A DNA stretch of 64,000 nucleotides, taken from positions 1 to 64,000 of the forward strand of contig JABFSH010000028.1 in the NCBI GenBank assembly GCA_013140705.1, written 5' to 3'. The translations under genes were made by a program, and so were the position numbers. A model generated the notes under the pieces. It saw nothing but the letters and a program-made list of their open reading frames with translations, was not told the origin of the DNA and made no database searches. Of the stretch, positions 1,231 to 30,576 are shown in pieces. Source of the stretch: Methylococcaceae bacterium (lineage in GTDB: Bacteria > Pseudomonadota > Gammaproteobacteria > Methylococcales > Methylomonadaceae). Positions within the stretch are counted from its first letter, which is position 1; every line of letters begins with the position of its first letter.

Positions 1231-2745
1231 TCACTGCAAACCAGTCTGCCGCAAGCGCTGAATGCACTGGTGATAGAACTTGGCCAGCTTGTCCCAATAG
1301 GTTGTCCATGCCTTGGCCATCGCTTCCGTTCCTTGTTGTTTGAGCGGCGGCCCATCCTCAACGACGATGAATATGCCGGGGTTCATTCCCATCCAGCAAC
1401 TCCAGGGGATGATGCCATTTTCCGGCGGCATAAATTCAATCGTTTGCAGGCCCTCCTTTAGCTCGATTCTTAAGTGGTATTGAGGCACCAGAATGACCCT
1501 GTTACACTGAGTCAATGCCTTGGCGTTGATCAGCCATTTAACAGGAACGCCTTTGCGCAAAGTGAATTGGTTCGGTGAGTACCCGCTGCTAAGTACCTCC
1601 ATGGTAATGATCTGTAGCTGATCAGCAGAAGGCGAGTCCACCCATAGTGCCGGTGACAGTTCTTGTGACAGCCGTGCCACCGTAGTGTTGAAGTCTATGC
1701 CGGTGCCCGTTTTCACTAAACCGCGATTCAACATAATGACTCCGAGCGCAATAACCAAGAAACCGGAAGCCTTGAGCAATCGGGGTGTCAGGCTGGCCGA
1801 CAGCAGACTGGTCAGAAATCCGAAGCCCAGCAGTAAAGGCAGGGTGCCGAGACCAAAAAAGAACAGCATGGCTGCGCCTTCGATCCAGTGACCGGTACCG
1901 GCTGCCATCACATACATGGCTTGCAACGGGCCGCAAATAATCATCAGGCCATTTAACAGGCCAATGATGAACGGGTTGCTGTGTCGGCGGTAGGCATTGC
2001 CGACGAAATTTCTAATAAGAGGCGGTGTGATCATCTGAAAATGCCGCAGTGTCGAAAAGACCTCCAGCATATGCAGGCCAAACAACAGTAAAAAAATGCC
2101 GGCTGCAACGCCGACCGCGCCTTGCAGGACCGGTGTGAAGGCAATGACTGAGCCCAGCGCCCCGAACAGGGCACCGATCAGCGTGTAGGACAACGTTTTG
2201 CCGAAACCATACAGAAGATGCGAGCCAAAGGGATGGGAAGCACTGGCAGCATTTTTCGCCACATAGCCCAACATCAGCGAACCACACATACCGGCACAAT
2301 GAAAGCTGGTCAGGAAACCGATCAGAAGCAGTAAACTGTAGCTGACCTCTTGACCAAGCTGAAGTCGATCGGCATGAACCGTGAACCATCTATCCAGGCA
2401 AAGAATCAAAACAATCCCAACCACAGCCAGACTGGTGATCGCTGACTTTTTCAATACCCCAAGCAAACTGAATTGACGGGAGATGTCGTGGGTTGTGCTC
2501 GGAACACCGTTAAATGTCTCAGAAAATCGCTCGGGGCCAAGCTGATATCCCTGCGTTTCAATACAGGCATGAATTAATGCTACTGTAATGAGCGTCTCAT
2601 CAAAATGAATGTTAAGGGTATCGCAAGTATAATCCGCGCGGACAGCCAGTATCCCCGGCAATTGTCTGATTGCGTTTTCGATAACGGCTTCACATCCGGC
2701 ACAGTGCATGCCATGAATAACGAATGCTTGAGTACGTAGTGCCAA
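1231..2745 (-). CDS. HMA domain - SafE/UreH-like membrane protein - C-terminal cupredoxin-like domain
   Basis: The product has about 504 residues if it starts at the TTG at 2745, 13 bases after the upstream dsbD stop; the open frame itself runs back to 2889 inside dsbD. Near the N terminus is a heavy-metal-associated motif, GMHCAGC (about residues 12-18). Then come six or more membrane segments with the FHCAGMCG signature of the SafE/UreH-like (TauE-like) family near residue 150. A C-terminal domain follows with His, Cys and Met ligands (SCWMGMNPG), resembling cupredoxin-like copper-binding domains. Proteins of this architecture are linked to copper transport and oxidase assembly. Its pairing with dsbD fits periplasmic copper and thiol handling. 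The start codon is uncertain and its Shine-Dalgarno is weak. Confidence 0.75.
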   Translation of the reverse strand: MALRTQAFVIHGMHCAGCEAVIENAIRQLPGILAVRADYTCDTLNIHFDETLITVALIHACIETQGYQLGPERFSETFNGVPSTTHDISRQFSLLGVLKKSAITSLAVVGIVLILCLDRWFTVHADRLQLGQEVSYSLLLLIGFLTSFHCAGMCGSLMLGYVAKNAASASHPFGSHLLYGFGKTLSYTLIGALFGALGSVIAFTPVLQGAVGVAAGIFLLLFGLHMLEVFSTLRHFQMITPPLIRNFVGNAYRRHSNPFIIGLLNGLMIICGPLQAMYVMAAGTGHWIEGAAMLFFFGLGTLPLLLGFGFLTSLLSASLTPRLLKASGFLVIALGVIMLNRGLVKTGTGIDFNTTVARLSQELSPALWVDSPSADQLQIITMEVLSSGYSPNQFTLRKGVPVKWLINAKALTQCNRVILVPQYHLRIELKEGLQTIEFMPPENGIIPWSCWMGMNPGIFIVVEDGPPLKQQGTEAMAKAWTTYWDKLAKFYHQCIQRLRQTGLQ

Positions 2746-2758
2746 TGGAATGAAGGGA

Positions 2759-4516
2759 TTACGTTTTCGGTTTGTCAAAAACCTGATTAATAATAGTGAG
2801 AAAGCGATCGGCTTTAATAAAACCAACAATGCGGTAAGCACTGCGCTCCTGCTGATCAGGGCCAAAGTAAAGAATCGCAGGCGGGCCAATCAGGTTAAAT
2901 TGCCTCAACAATGCCTGATCGTCCGGGCTGTTTTTTGTCACATCAGCCTGTAGCAGCACAGTCTGAGATAAAGCCGCCCTAATCTTGGAGTCTGCAAAGG
3001 TATAAAGTGCCAGTTCTTGGCAGGAGGCACACCAGTCCGCATAAAAATCAAGCATAACCCATTGCTCGCTCGCCTGAGCTTTGGCCAGATAGTGTTGCAA
3101 ATCCAGGGAATTTTCAATCTTTTTAAACTTCAGAGTCAGCGATAGTTGCTCCTTGCAGGCAATGGCCGCCGTGCAGAGAAGAGGCCGCAAAACGTCGGGT
3201 TGATTGGTGGAAACGCCTATCCACAGGAGAATTCCGTAAACCGCTGTAAGTGCGACTGCGCCAGTCCATCGCTTATTAAAGAGCAAAAGCATGATTGGCA
3301 AAATGCCTAGCAGGAGACTTAAAAACACGGTTACCATCGGCGGCATGATGCGACTTAATAACCAGACGGCAACAGCAAAAAGCCCCATGCCAAAAATGAC
3401 TTTAGTGATGTTCAGCCAGGCACCCGCCTTTGGCAGTAATTTACCGGCATAAGTGCCCATGACAAGCAACGGGATACCCATGCCTATTCCAAGGGCAAAC
3501 AAGGCCAGCCCTCCCAAGATCGCATCACCGGTCTGACCGATATAGATCAGTGCACCGGTCAATGGCGCCGTAACACACGGTCCGATTGCCAAGGCTGAAA
3601 GAACTCCCATCACCGCGGCTCCGATCAGATTGCCACCCTGCTGTTTGGAGCCAAGTCCGATAATTCGGGTTTGTAGAGCCGAAGGTATTTGCAATTGAAA
3701 AACGCCGAACATGGACAGTGCTAAAAGAATAAATAGTACGCTCAATGCGCTGATTATCCATGGTTCCTGGAATAATGCCTGGAGGTTGCTGCCGAAAAGT
3801 CCTGCCAGAATACCAAATACCGTATAAGTCAGTGCAGATGTCATCACGTAGCTCAACGATAACAGGAATGCCCTGTTTGTGTTTATCTTTGTGCCCTGAC
3901 CAACAACGATGCCGGAAAGAATAGGCAACATTGGGAAAATGCAGGGCGTAAAGGCCAGCAAAACCCCGAAACCAAGAAAACTTGACACGACAAACCAGGC
4001 TGATCGGTTTTTTAATGACGTGGCGATGCTATTCTGTTCGGAGATAAACGGTTCGGCTTTATCAGACCATGTCATTGTGGCAAGTTTGTTGCCACTTATT
4101 CGTGGTAGATCGAAGACTAGCGTCTCATGGCTCGGCATATAGCAAATGCCGTCCTCGGAACAACCCTGAAAAGTCAGATCCAAAATAAGCTGACGGGCTT
4201 CTGGTTTCTGGCGCTGAATGGGGATTTCTAACACCAGACGCTTCCTGAATATTTCCACGTTTCCGAATAACGCATCCTGCCGGGTTTGACTGGGCGGGAA
4301 AAAAGGCGCCCCCAGCATGACGCCCGGCGTCAGAGAAGTCCATTTGAATTTATTGCGATACAAAAAACAGCAGTCTGAAATTGTCCAGGAAAGTAACACT
4401 GAATCGGCGTTGGTAAGGCTGGCCGAAAGACGAAACGCCTGCTCAGGGGGCAATAGCTCGACTGGGTCAGCTGCGCATACGGGATTGGCGAATCCGGCAA
4501 GCAGGCAGAATAGCAT
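2759..4516 (-). CDS. dsbD: Protein-disulfide reductase DsbD
   Basis: DsbD passes electrons from cytoplasmic thioredoxin across the inner membrane to periplasmic thiol partners, including cytochrome c maturation. All three modules are visible. The N-terminal periplasmic domain has the FQGCSEDGIC cysteine pair. The eight-segment membrane domain has the two redox cysteines in FTPCIFP and IGPCVTAP. The C-terminal thioredoxin-like domain has WCASC at about residues 495-499 of 585. I chose the ATG at 4516 because a signal peptide follows at once (MLFCLLAGF... ending near CAAD). The frame is open to 4765, but the extra N terminus has no family resemblance. It is followed 13 bases later by the HMA/SafE gene, probably in one operon. 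Confidence 0.9.
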   Translation of the reverse strand: MLFCLLAGFANPVCAADPVELLPPEQAFRLSASLTNADSVLLSWTISDCCFLYRNKFKWTSLTPGVMLGAPFFPPSQTRQDALFGNVEIFRKRLVLEIPIQRQKPEARQLILDLTFQGCSEDGICYMPSHETLVFDLPRISGNKLATMTWSDKAEPFISEQNSIATSLKNRSAWFVVSSFLGFGVLLAFTPCIFPMLPILSGIVVGQGTKINTNRAFLLSLSYVMTSALTYTVFGILAGLFGSNLQALFQEPWIISALSVLFILLALSMFGVFQLQIPSALQTRIIGLGSKQQGGNLIGAAVMGVLSALAIGPCVTAPLTGALIYIGQTGDAILGGLALFALGIGMGIPLLVMGTYAGKLLPKAGAWLNITKVIFGMGLFAVAVWLLSRIMPPMVTVFLSLLLGILPIMLLLFNKRWTGAVALTAVYGILLWIGVSTNQPDVLRPLLCTAAIACKEQLSLTLKFKKIENSLDLQHYLAKAQASEQWVMLDFYADWCASCQELALYTFADSKIRAALSQTVLLQADVTKNSPDDQALLRQFNLIGPPAILYFGPDQQERSAYRIVGFIKADRFLTIINQVFDKPKT

Positions 4517-4970
4517 TTTTATAATTGAACTGTAAGCTAAACGTAACACCCCGGTTCGCAGACTATTTGCAGATATCAGTTTATCGGAAGGTAAAAATGG
4601 AGTGTATGAAATCATCAGAAATGTGCTTGGAAAAATCCCTTGGAGCACTTGTTGCATCGTTATTTTATTGACAGGAAAAACTATTTGAATGAAAGGGGCC
4701 TTCATCTTTTCACGGCTAATTGGAGTTGCAAACAACGGTTCCCGGTAAATAGTGCGCCACGGCAAGCGGCCGTATTCAGAAGTAAAACATTAAACTTTAA
4801 ACCGTATGACAAAGGTGTACCTGTAAGAACTGCCCATAGTGTAATACCCCGCCCTGCGCCTGGAAATGTGGCAAATTGACGCGTTGCAATAGGGCATTTC
4901 AGACGCTGCCTTTTTGTCGAATAACCTTTACACCTGAAGTCCATCAGGGTGGGCAAAACAGAGTAATCAT
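4517..4970. other. Intergenic region between divergent genes
   Basis: This is the upstream region of dsbD on the minus strand. Frames on both strands remain open for short stretches, but none shows a family signature. It should contain the dsbD promoter, which I could not locate with confidence. It borders the palindrome at 4971-5002. Confidence 0.4.
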
Positions 4971-5002
4971 AATTAAACTGTGTTAATTAACACAGTTTAA
5001 TT
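4971..5002. promoter_or_regulatory. Perfect 32-bp palindrome, probable operator
   Basis: The stretch reads identically on both strands; the half-site is aattaaactgtgttaa, with its centre between 4986 and 4987. Its right end overlaps the -35 hexamer of the promoter at 5001-5029. It also sits between divergent genes (dsbD leftward, Cys/His-rich protein rightward). The size and the TGTG-N8-CACA core are typical of a dimeric helix-turn-helix repressor site. I cannot name the regulator, and no candidate regulator gene lies next to it. Confidence 0.7.
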
Positions 5003-5029
5003 GAAAGAATTGTAATTTTATGGTAAGAT
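5001..5029 (+). promoter_or_regulatory. Sigma-70 promoter of the Cys/His-rich protein gene
   Basis: A -35 element ttgaaa at 5001-5006 is followed, after exactly 17 bases, by a -10 element taagat at 5024-5029. Transcription would start near 5036. The gene has a strong ribosome-binding site (aggagg, 5047-5052) eight bases before the ATG at 5061. The overlap of the -35 with the palindrome suggests repression by occlusion. Confidence 0.6.
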
Positions 5030-5060
5030 TAAATCTCATTTAGGTTAGGAGGATAATATT

Positions 5061-5444
5061 ATGAAAATTCAGTCTCTTTTGATCGCCTTATTCTTGTCTA
5101 TTTCGCTTGTGTCAACTGGAGCGTTGGCCAAAACGCACCCAAAGCACTGCGATATTCACAAAACAGCGACTACACATGATTGTGCCAAACATTGTGCCGA
5201 TCATCCCGGTGCCAAAGATCAGGCCTGCGCTAAACATTGTGAGTCTGACCCGACCGCCAAAGCGCATGTATGCAACACAGCGCACTGCGATGAGCATCTG
5301 GCTTTAGCAGCAAAGAGTTGTACCACAGAAAACTGCTCAAAACATGAGGGGGCAGCCGCCCATAATTGCAGCACGGAGCATTGCGCCAAACACGGCGGTA
5401 ACATGGCCGATTGTTGTGGAACCACGCAACGTTGTGATGTTTAG
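5061..5444 (+). CDS. Secreted Cys/His-repeat protein, putative metal-binding protein
   Basis: The 127-residue product begins with a clear Sec signal peptide (about residues 1-23, ending STGALA). The mature part is built of tandem units of about 13-16 residues with the pattern C-x3-C or C-x4-C followed by Asp/Glu-His or Lys-His, for example DCAKHCADH, ACAKHC, CNTAHCDEH, CTTENCSKH and CSTEHCAKH. It contains 14 Cys and many His. Such density is typical of metal sequestration or a thiol buffer in the periplasm. I recognise no named family; it does not look like the four-helix Csp copper-storage proteins. The divergent dsbD and HMA/SafE genes make copper or another thiophilic metal the most likely ligand (inference). 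Confidence 0.75.
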   Translation: MKIQSLLIALFLSISLVSTGALAKTHPKHCDIHKTATTHDCAKHCADHPGAKDQACAKHCESDPTAKAHVCNTAHCDEHLALAAKSCTTENCSKHEGAAAHNCSTEHCAKHGGNMADCCGTTQRCDV

Positions 5445-5642
5445 GACTCTTTAGCATACCTGTAGTCGATCAACGCTTAGCAAGAAGTCTTTACCGGGCC
5501 AACGCCTTGTCTCAATGGACTTGATAATCTGTTTGCAGGCTATCAAGTCCAAGAGCTGACATTCCCAATCCTTGACAATTCAGTTCATACTTTCTGATTT
5601 CGGGAATTTATTTTTTCCAAGTCCTGATAGGTTCCTGCGCAA
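5445..5642. other. Non-coding stretch with a stem-loop
   Basis: A 10-bp perfect inverted repeat (ggacttgata / tatcaagtcc, 5517-5526 and 5541-5550, loop 14) lies about 75 bases after the Cys/His-rich gene. There is no T-run after it on the plus strand, so it is not a textbook terminator. Nothing else is seen. Confidence 0.4.
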
Positions 5643-6053: not shown

Positions 6054-7217
6054 TTAGCAACCCGCCATATAATGACTAAATAGGCTTGGATTTTGGTTTC
6101 TAAGCTTGGACCTAAGACAAAGGGTTTTTTCATCGATATCCTTGCCTGCACAAAGAATTAAACCGCATATCAATGTGAATGCGTCTTGACCGATATTTTC
6201 TTCATCGACATTCACCTTTAACTTAGCTAAAGCTGGCTTTTTCAGCACCGTCCAGGCGGGAAAAAAGATGGCATCAAGTTCTGGATCAAGTTCATTGAAA
6301 TTACGCCAATCTGACAACAACAAAAAGTTGTCGGTGCCGTTAACTAGCCGTTCGGCGCTTTCAGGGAAAAGCATATACAATCTGAACCAGCTTGCTAATC
6401 CCTCCGCTTCCCTATTCAATTTAAAACAAGCTTCGGCATAACGATAGAGTAATATCGGTTGCCTTTGCCAGCCTTCTTCACCTTCGATCGCAACAAGAAC
6501 CTCCCGCCAATCAAACGCCTTAATGGCGGTAAAGCTTAAATGATCTTGAGGGGATTCTGCGTCAAAAGTTCTTCCTGAAATTTCTTGCGATAACTGTTGC
6601 CAAATAGGTGTGAGGTAATCGCCCGTAAATCGGCCCAAAACGCTAAAAGCCATTGGTGTCAGCGTATCTAGCAAGTATTCAATTTTGCTTTTGGTTGTTG
6701 GGTAATGACATAATCGTTCTTGCTGAGCCAACAAACGTTCAAATGACGTGTATGTTTCCGGAGCTAGCGACTCTACTCGCTCCATTAAATTCGGAATGTC
6801 TTCCCCCCGCCTTTCGACGATGGCTCTTGTCAGGTCTTGAACTGCTAAAATGGGGGCACTATCGAAAAACAGATCCATCTGAACCCGGTTCTCTGCGGGT
6901 TGATAAACTGTGGTTAAGATAATTTCGTTAGTCTTGGATCGACAAATAGTGAGCGATTTTTGCTCTATTGATTTATAGGGCTGGCAAACAGCATCCAAAT
7001 TTAATTTTTCGGCGTAGTCTCGTGCCAACTTCAAGCTTGCAATAATCTCCGCTAACGGGTTCTTGAAGGAATCTTCAAGAAAACCTCCGCAGGCGTTTCT
7101 CCAACTATCGTAATCGGCGTAATCAAGATGCCCTACCTTGAGCAGCCACGGGATTGCCGAAAAACTTCCTTGTTCGAACAGAATCGAATCGAATTGGTTT
7201 TGGATAGAATTGGGCAT
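6054..7217 (-). CDS. Conserved-looking hypothetical protein, 387 aa
   Basis: A long open frame with normal composition encodes a soluble protein with no signal peptide or membrane segment. It looks mainly alpha-helical (for example LLYRYAEACFKLNREAEGLASWFRLYMLFP around residues 265-295, reminiscent of a TPR-like helix pair). I recognise no catalytic motif. It is transcribed alone, leftward, with the toxin-antitoxin remnant upstream on the same strand. A scaffold or assembly role would be a guess. Confidence 0.7.
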   Translation of the reverse strand: MPNSIQNQFDSILFEQGSFSAIPWLLKVGHLDYADYDSWRNACGGFLEDSFKNPLAEIIASLKLARDYAEKLNLDAVCQPYKSIEQKSLTICRSKTNEIILTTVYQPAENRVQMDLFFDSAPILAVQDLTRAIVERRGEDIPNLMERVESLAPETYTSFERLLAQQERLCHYPTTKSKIEYLLDTLTPMAFSVLGRFTGDYLTPIWQQLSQEISGRTFDAESPQDHLSFTAIKAFDWREVLVAIEGEEGWQRQPILLYRYAEACFKLNREAEGLASWFRLYMLFPESAERLVNGTDNFLLLSDWRNFNELDPELDAIFFPAWTVLKKPALAKLKVNVDEENIGQDAFTLICGLILCAGKDIDEKTLCLRSKLRNQNPSLFSHYMAGC

Positions 7218-7274: not shown

Positions 7275-7695
7275 TTAAGTACCTGTAAGATAAAGCTCAA
7301 AAGTGGCAGTTGTCCAAGTGGCCATGCCGGCGCCAAAATAATCTTTGTCCTCCGACCATACGGGGCAGTCGAGCAGGAGTGCCGCAGCCACTGCTGGCCA
7401 GTCATTCACGGAGCGAAATGCGTGCTGCATTACACTCCACTTCAGTTAAGATGTCATCTGTTATGATTTGGACGGTATTCATTACACCATTAAATACTGG
7501 ACGCCAATACGACTCACTCAAATTACGCTTCGCAGCCAATTCTGTTGAGAGATAAAACTCAGCCTCTACCGCATTCGCTTCTGTGGCGTAGAAAGCCACT
7601 GATTCACTGTAGCGCTCTATTAAATGTCTAACTTTAGATCCTAAAACCACGCGAACGAGGATGTTTGCGTCAATGACTAAACGTTTATGCTGCAT
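7275..7695 (-). pseudogene. PIN-domain toxin (VapC-like), frameshifted
   Basis: The N-terminal part starts at 7695 with the PIN core VIDANILVRVVLG (first acidic residue Asp) and continues to a stop at 7402. The missing C-terminal third is present in another frame, from about 7405 down to a stop at 7275. It reads VNDWPAVAAALLLDCPVWS and then EDKDYFGAG, the characteristic PIN end with its acidic residues. One frameshift near 7402-7407 therefore splits the gene. It overlaps the antitoxin gene by 11 bases. The toxin is probably inactive unless the shift is a sequencing error or is bypassed. Confidence 0.8.
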
Positions 7696-7948
7696 GTGAC
7701 CGCTGATGCCGCCATTGTCTAAATTCCTCTAACAACTCATCTTCTTTGAGTCCCAAGCGGATTAATTCATCATCCATGCGTTTTCCTGCCTCCAAGAGTG
7801 CTTCACGCTGTGCTTGTCCCGGTTTTTTCGGAATAGGTATAAAGAAACCGATGGTTTGACCGTGCCGCGTCACCTCAATGGTTTCGCTTGATTCGAGAAG
7901 CAATGAAAATTTTTCGCGTAATTCTCTTACACCAATACGCTGGGTCAT
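7685..7948 (-). CDS. Phd/YefM-type antitoxin
   Basis: This antitoxin of a type II toxin-antitoxin pair would bind the PIN toxin and autoregulate the operon. The N-terminal Phd-fold signature is clear: GVRELREKFSLLLE, then IEVTRHGQTIGFFIPI, followed by an acidic helical tail that would wrap the toxin. I prefer the ATG at 7948 (MTQRIGVRE) to the GTG/ATG four codons upstream (7960). It is intact, while its toxin partner is frameshifted, a common end state for decaying pairs. Confidence 0.8.
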   Translation of the reverse strand: MTQRIGVRELREKFSLLLESSETIEVTRHGQTIGFFIPIPKKPGQAQREALLEAGKRMDDELIRLGLKEDELLEEFRQWRHQRSHAA

Positions 7949-7960
7949 ATACACCCCCAA

Positions 7961-29709: not shown

Positions 29710-30576
29710 ATGAGACAGCTTACGCCTGAAGGCCAGCAACTGATTAACAATCTTGCACAACGTTATAACTTTAGCCCTGATGCCGTATTCTGCATGCTGC
29801 AGTCGGTCATCAATGGTAACGGCTCTATGGCACAGTTTAATCATCGAGAATTTGGAGGCTCAGGCCAATGGATGAAAGGTGGCATGATTATGCTGGGAGA
29901 CATGTTCAATCATTACTTGAAAAACAGTGTCGCCGGACTGTGTCAGGAACTCTCTACTCTGGTTGCCAATCAACCGAACCTCATTCAAGAGGGCAATTTT
30001 CAGTCACAAAACCAGGGCACCCAGCAACAAAGCAACGGGGGAAACAATTTTTCTACCAGCGGTCAACAACAAAATAGTTCCGGTCCTATGGGTCCTGTCA
30101 GCTTGTTTGTGCCGCCAGCGACCGGTAGTTCAGGAAACTGGTGGCCCGCAGGACTGCAATTTCCTAACAGTACAGGTGCTCAGAATAACGTGCGTTATGC
30201 TTATTTTGCGACCATTCGGCGCTTAGCGATCGAAGTCAATGGGCATGTGACACTTTACGATACACTCGATCATCAGATTGGTGGCTTTTCGCAACAACAG
30301 TCAGTAGGTGGCTCTATAACTTTTACCAGTCAATATGGCTTGGTCGATGTAAAAACATTACCCATCATTTCTATCGACAATGAACCGGTGCATGCACCGG
30401 TTCAATCGCAACCCACCCACTTCAACATTCAGCCCAGCCCTGTGACTACGCAAATGGTAAATCAGGAATCCGATATTTTCAGCGCTATCGAGAAATTAGC
30501 CCAGCTGAAAGAAAAAGGTATATTGTCGGATGATGAGTACAGTGTTAAAAAAGCTGAACTGCTGGCCAGGTTATAA
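29710..30576 (+). CDS. SHOCT-domain protein with Gln/Asn-rich linker
   Basis: The 288-residue product has three parts. An N-terminal domain (about 1-95) holds a conserved-looking LTPEGQQLINNLAQRYNFS segment. A low-complexity Gln/Asn/Gly/Ser stretch follows at about 98-140. Then a beta-rich middle domain (NVRYAYFATIRRLAIEVNGHVTLYDTLDHQIGGF) leads to a C-terminal SHOCT motif (DIFSAIEKLAQLKEKGILSDDEY...KKAELLARL). SHOCT motifs usually mediate oligomerisation. There is no signal peptide or membrane segment. Function unknown. Confidence 0.75.
   Translation: MRQLTPEGQQLINNLAQRYNFSPDAVFCMLQSVINGNGSMAQFNHREFGGSGQWMKGGMIMLGDMFNHYLKNSVAGLCQELSTLVANQPNLIQEGNFQSQNQGTQQQSNGGNNFSTSGQQQNSSGPMGPVSLFVPPATGSSGNWWPAGLQFPNSTGAQNNVRYAYFATIRRLAIEVNGHVTLYDTLDHQIGGFSQQQSVGGSITFTSQYGLVDVKTLPIISIDNEPVHAPVQSQPTHFNIQPSPVTTQMVNQESDIFSAIEKLAQLKEKGILSDDEYSVKKAELLARL

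Follow-up and report, generated by a model that had tools for sequence, protein, structure and literature searches.

On comparison across genomes, the perfect 32-bp palindrome in front of a gene for a Cys/His-rich secreted protein is a genuine cis-regulatory site, conserved together with the promoter of that gene, and it is one member of a multi-gene regulon motif, a level of organization beyond the reach of the original prediction, which had been made from the letters of this DNA alone. On balance, we lean towards reading the palindrome as the site of a dimeric protein of a metal or copper regulon, which would work as an enhancer-binding protein (EBP) at sigma-54 targets and would act directly at the Cys/His promoter. 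Within the window, by which we mean the whole 64,000-nt stretch of DNA analysed, the site and its promoter are laid out as follows.

4971 to 5002, no strand assigned: perfect 32-bp palindrome AATTAAACTGTGTTAATTAACACAGTTTAATT, a predicted operator whose AT-rich flanks (AATTA/TAATT) are kept in homologues
4976 to 4997, no strand assigned: 22-bp core AACTGTGTTAATTAACACAGTT, a dyad of TGT-N10-ACA type that recurs genome-wide and family-wide
5001 to 5006, plus strand: -35-like hexamer TTGAAA, called from the sequence, with comparable hexamers in homologues
5021 to 5029, plus strand: extended -10 element TGGTAAGAT (TG at 5021-5022, TAAGAT at 5024-5029), called from the sequence, 26 bp after the core
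5047 to 5052, plus strand: Shine-Dalgarno sequence AGGAGG, called from the sequence
5061 to 5444, plus strand: gene for the 127-aa secreted Cys/His-rich protein, a probable metal-binding protein

The palindrome is the longest perfect one in the window, where the next reaches 24 bp, and 24 bp was also the maximum found in 200 first-order Markov simulations of the window, so that the 32 bp originally reported were borne out and exceed the simulated range. (The second-longest, TGAACCGGTGCATGCACCGGTTCA, lies at 30381-30404, and its length of 24 bp was reached in 2 of the 200 simulations.) The promoter was likewise as first described, with 17 bp separating TTGAAA from TAAGAT and the strong ribosome-binding site in place before the ATG at 5061. 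The statement that the palindrome overlies the -35 box held in part: only the first two bases of the hexamer are overlapped, and the 22-bp core lies wholly upstream of it. Taking the -10 hexamer as -12 to -7 relative to the predicted start, the core spans about -61 to -40 and is centred at about -49.5. About 70 bp past the stop codon of the gene is an imperfect inverted repeat (5516-5551; 16-nt arms, 88%), a possible terminator that has no clear T-run.

The product of the gene agrees with its description as a Cys/His-rich secreted protein, with a Sec-type signal peptide followed by about 104 mature residues that include 14 Cys and 14 His, and all 14 Cys are invariant among 12 homologues. Searches of the protein against Pfam and NCBIfam gave no match and those against the PDB no relative, and a structure model (mean pLDDT 46.6) was too poor for use. 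By this protein the closest named relatives are Methyloglobulus and Methylobacter records, which places the window in a gammaproteobacterial methanotroph of the Methylococcaceae/Methylomonadaceae type. A 128-aa paralogue with 72% identity is encoded on contig C52 of the same genome. Relatives occur in 31 of 201 genomes of the family, spread over 7 of its 29 genera, some of which carry longer, lipoprotein-like versions.

Two genes lie to the left of the site, both on the opposite strand.

1231 to 2889, minus strand: 552-aa HMA plus DsbD_2 (SafE-like) membrane protein, left of dsbD
2759 to 4765, minus strand: dsbD (protein-disulfide reductase), the divergent left neighbour; coordinates of the listed open reading frame, whose true start is probably nearer 4520

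The site had been placed between divergent thiol/copper genes, and this was right for the left side, where dsbD diverges from it, and wrong for the right side of the Cys/His gene, where we found no thiol or copper gene. Nor is the neighbourhood conserved, as dsbD was not found beside orthologues of the Cys/His gene. In two other genomes (loci L073 and L163), a dyad comes after a homologue of the 552-aa protein with about 61% identity. Further along the window, 7402-7695 encodes a probable PIN-domain toxin, and an overlapping small gene upstream of it (7685-7960) weakly matches the PhdYefM antitoxin.

Comparison of upstream regions, which the original prediction had itself proposed, revealed the dyad with its AATTA/TAATT flanks in front of most orthologues and paralogues in several genera, with the 128-aa paralogue having the same site at the same distance as the 127-aa gene. 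Because the palindrome sits at the same place upstream of both the paralogue and the orthologues, the prediction came through this comparison, the dyad being missing or degenerate at some orthologues (L022, L023, L024, L028, and L038). Across 20 divergent promoters, conservation averaged 1.53 bits per position in the core and 1.39 in the downstream flank, compared with 0.11 further upstream. In most homologues a -10-like hexamer follows the 22-bp core by 26-28 bp. A mobile repeat element was also considered as an explanation for the palindrome and rejected, because the sites keep a fixed distance to orthologous promoters across genera, and the sequences flanking them are not conserved.

Within its own genome the 22-bp core occurs at 6 sites, as against none for a reversed control; a degenerate core allowing at most one mismatch gave 7 against 0, and a half-site plus flank gave 13 against 1, all at the same loci. 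The other copies form tandem arrays on contigs C64, C76, C51, and C27, with spacings of 52 and 23 bp recurring, and stand before PEP-CTERM genes, a DUF3570 operon, an ECF sigma gene, and others. Locus L008 holds three arrays of three dyads each (4186-4282, 4917-5013, and 6858-6954), all repeating the 52 and 23 bp spacings, with partly conserved sequence between the sites, which looks like a duplicated regulatory unit. Eight dyad clusters of this genome have a -24/-12 sigma-54 element between the site and the gene, the best being TGGCACAAGTGTTGCT, which matches at 11 of 11 positions. No such element was found in this genome at the two Cys/His genes, the SmbP-like gene on C24, the TetR gene on C59, or two of the C64 arrays. 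At locus L016 (2821-3389), a dyad precedes the possible sigma-70 promoter of an SmbP-like gene for a small His-rich protein, and this gene adjoins a second dsbD gene.

Beyond this genome, a strict form of the dyad pattern was found in 37 of 201 family genomes and 14 of 29 genera. Outside the family it matched in one genome of a class-wide sample of 369, and the reversed control also matched in one. That sole match in a genome of another family (L162, 1501-1522) lies about 90 bp upstream of a gene for a Sec-dependent nitrous-oxide reductase, a copper enzyme, and the dyad there may be due to chance. At most targets the dyads, single or in tandem, lie 60-725 bp upstream of sigma-54 promoters. Scoring a match as at least 8 of 11 positions within 450 bp and leaving the Cys/His loci aside, we found a sigma-54 element at 20 of 26 dyad loci, compared with 26% when points were chosen at random and 17% when flanks were shuffled; these 26 loci come from the strict pattern and include related species, so that they sample the targets neither at random nor with full independence. 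The other 6 loci are without a good match. At the Cys/His genes, no -24/-12 element was found between dyad and ATG in the window or at the paralogue (L005), nor at a plausible position in homologues of the gene.

The genes behind these dyads include TonB copper-receptor-like genes, ECF sigma genes (in two genera), surface-type proteins carrying a haem-binding-like CxxCH motif, PEP-CTERM proteins, and DUF3570. For the TonB receptors the best NCBIfam model was the copper receptor TIGR01778, with scores of 167 and 48 bits that are both below the curated cut-off of 472, one of the two receptors being partial. Two further target families are secreted proteins, distantly related to a target in the window's own genome, in which His is predicted to be the first residue after signal-peptide cleavage. 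For the secreted protein of L084, a PDB search gave no relatives. Because the site recurs in front of many genes of metal uptake and the cell surface, a metal regulon, most likely one for copper, is its probable meaning. Copper as the signal is suggested by the types of target together with work on other species, and the metal theme of the original prediction appears likely to be right. Many targets are PEP-CTERM or uncharacterised proteins whose link to copper is at most putative, and since the target at L086 is a siderophore-receptor-like gene, the signal could instead be iron or some other metal.

The work on other species concerns copper-responsive genes in related methanotrophs. The copper-limitation clusters of Methylococcus capsulatus contain surface cytochromes, MauG-type di-haem proteins, a TonB receptor, and putative sigma-54 promoters (PMC4831470), and CorA/CorB of Methylomicrobium album are copper-repressed (PMC3912023). 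The dyad targets resemble these copper genes in their surface cytochromes, MauG-type di-haem proteins, TonB receptor, and putative sigma-54 promoters; what sets the two apart is that neither report, in its available portion, names a shared 22-bp dyad.

Among known regulatory sites, the nearest in form is the NifA upstream activating sequence, a sigma-54 enhancer site of the form TGT-N10-ACA. The dyad TGTGTTATATAACACA fits this form, lies upstream of -24/-12 promoters, and often comes in multiple copies. It differs in that its targets are metal-uptake and surface genes rather than nif genes, and in that it also occurs at about -50 of the Cys/His sigma-70 promoters.

Together, these patterns point to a mechanism in which the palindrome would be bound with high affinity by a dimeric protein in control of a metal regulon, most likely for copper, in this methanotroph family. 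At most targets, that protein would be a sigma-54 EBP switching on metal-uptake and surface proteins. An EBP is the probable binder because most target sites, often tandem, lie at such distances upstream of a -24/-12 promoter, and since sigma-54 promoters need an EBP and the dyad is their shared upstream element, it is also the simplest one. At the 127-aa gene, the same site adjoins a sigma-70 promoter, with its flank touching the -35 hexamer, and the bound protein probably changes the access of RNA polymerase directly. The product would then be a periplasmic metal buffer, repressed in conditions when the uptake genes are on.

The direction of control at the Cys/His gene is the part of this mechanism with the strongest competitor. 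With the same operator, the regulator might instead bind at about -50 of the sigma-70 promoter to activate the gene, the product then being co-expressed with the uptake genes and acting in the periplasm as a scavenger or chaperone rather than as a buffer, and we regard this as a serious possibility though not the probable one. It accords with a core that lies just upstream of the -35 at a constant distance from the -10, and with -35 hexamers that vary among homologues beside -10-like hexamers that are often near consensus. Against it, a good -35 hexamer spaced by about 17 bp, which needs no activator, is present in several homologues (TTGACA in L005, TTGAAA in the window, and TTGATA in L020), and EBPs normally work through sigma-54. 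These good -35 hexamers are why we lean slightly to repression over activation. The tightly repressed, inducible stress promoter originally proposed is a possibility only, given a core centred near -49.5 and a dyad that elsewhere looks activator-like for sigma-54.

As to which protein binds, no regulator gene was consistently linked to the dyad at the loci examined, and the candidates that we weighed each fall short of probable. The best of them, itself rather unlikely, is a receiverless EBP of 320 aa whose gene shares an operon with that of a SafE-like membrane protein. Dyads lie upstream of this operon in two genomes (L130 and L131), yet none was found within 1.5 kb at 30 other loci, that of the window's own genome included. 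The protein is encoded in 189 of 201 family genomes, covering every one of the 29 genera, and it was also present in those dyad-bearing genomes that were checked (in G183 as split fragments); because its presence is near-universal, this co-occurrence is uninformative.

A regulator other than an EBP, for example a factor of CRP/FNR type (TGTG-N8-CACA) with an accessory role at the sigma-54 promoters, we judge unlikely. The core does fit the half-site spacing of CRP-like proteins, and promoters that lack sigma-54 elements make use of the same site; nevertheless, an EBP is required at the 20 of 26 other loci that have sigma-54 promoters, where no shared element other than the dyad was seen. To our knowledge, a centre at -49.5 is also no usual class I or class II position for CRP/FNR, which counts against this type of regulator.

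Still less probable, in our assessment, is PrsR, the exosortase/PEP-CTERM response regulator, with the dyad as the site of the known PEP-CTERM regulon. PrsR is encoded here (C46:81196-82521; 718 bits, over the TIGR02915 cut-off), and, as with the PrsK-PrsR cis-element, the dyad lies, in the window's own genome, upstream of several PEP-CTERM genes with sigma-54 promoters. However, the published PrsR-associated motif 1 is 17 nt long, ends in TTTACA, and lies about 63 nt upstream of a sigma-54 motif 2 (PMC1569441), whereas the 22-bp dyad AACTGTGTnATATnACACAGTT stands at variable and mostly larger distances of 60-725 nt, and many of its targets elsewhere are not PEP-CTERM proteins. Finally, that the dyad is the operator of a TetR-family protein encoded on C59 is very improbable, for although two overlapping dyads lie 92-110 bp upstream of its own start, autoregulation is largely refuted by 29 orthologues that have no comparable pair, one of them with a single weak match. 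At that TetR locus (L018), where the overlapping dyads occupy 2875-2914, a methanethiol oxidase (MtoX) gene lies further on, and 4037-5428 was noted together with the pair.

Returning to the EBP that we favour as binder, the literature search found no published description of the dyad, and reports on gammaproteobacterial methanotrophs whose copper-limitation genes have putative sigma-54 promoters name, in their available portions, no enhancer site or regulator for these genes. We offer, tentatively and as a possibility short of probable, that one EBP and one dyad serve two uses, as a distal sigma-54 enhancer and as a proximal switch at -50, setting uptake against storage, and that this EBP is the missing regulator of the copper-repressed surface proteins. 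Copper controls the expression of methane monooxygenase and of surface proteins in methane-oxidising bacteria, and if this proposal is true, a single site would set copper uptake and surface genes against storage in a periplasmic metal buffer. A family-wide site with a defined consensus makes the question of the copper regulator testable, and it gives a probe for listing the regulon elsewhere.
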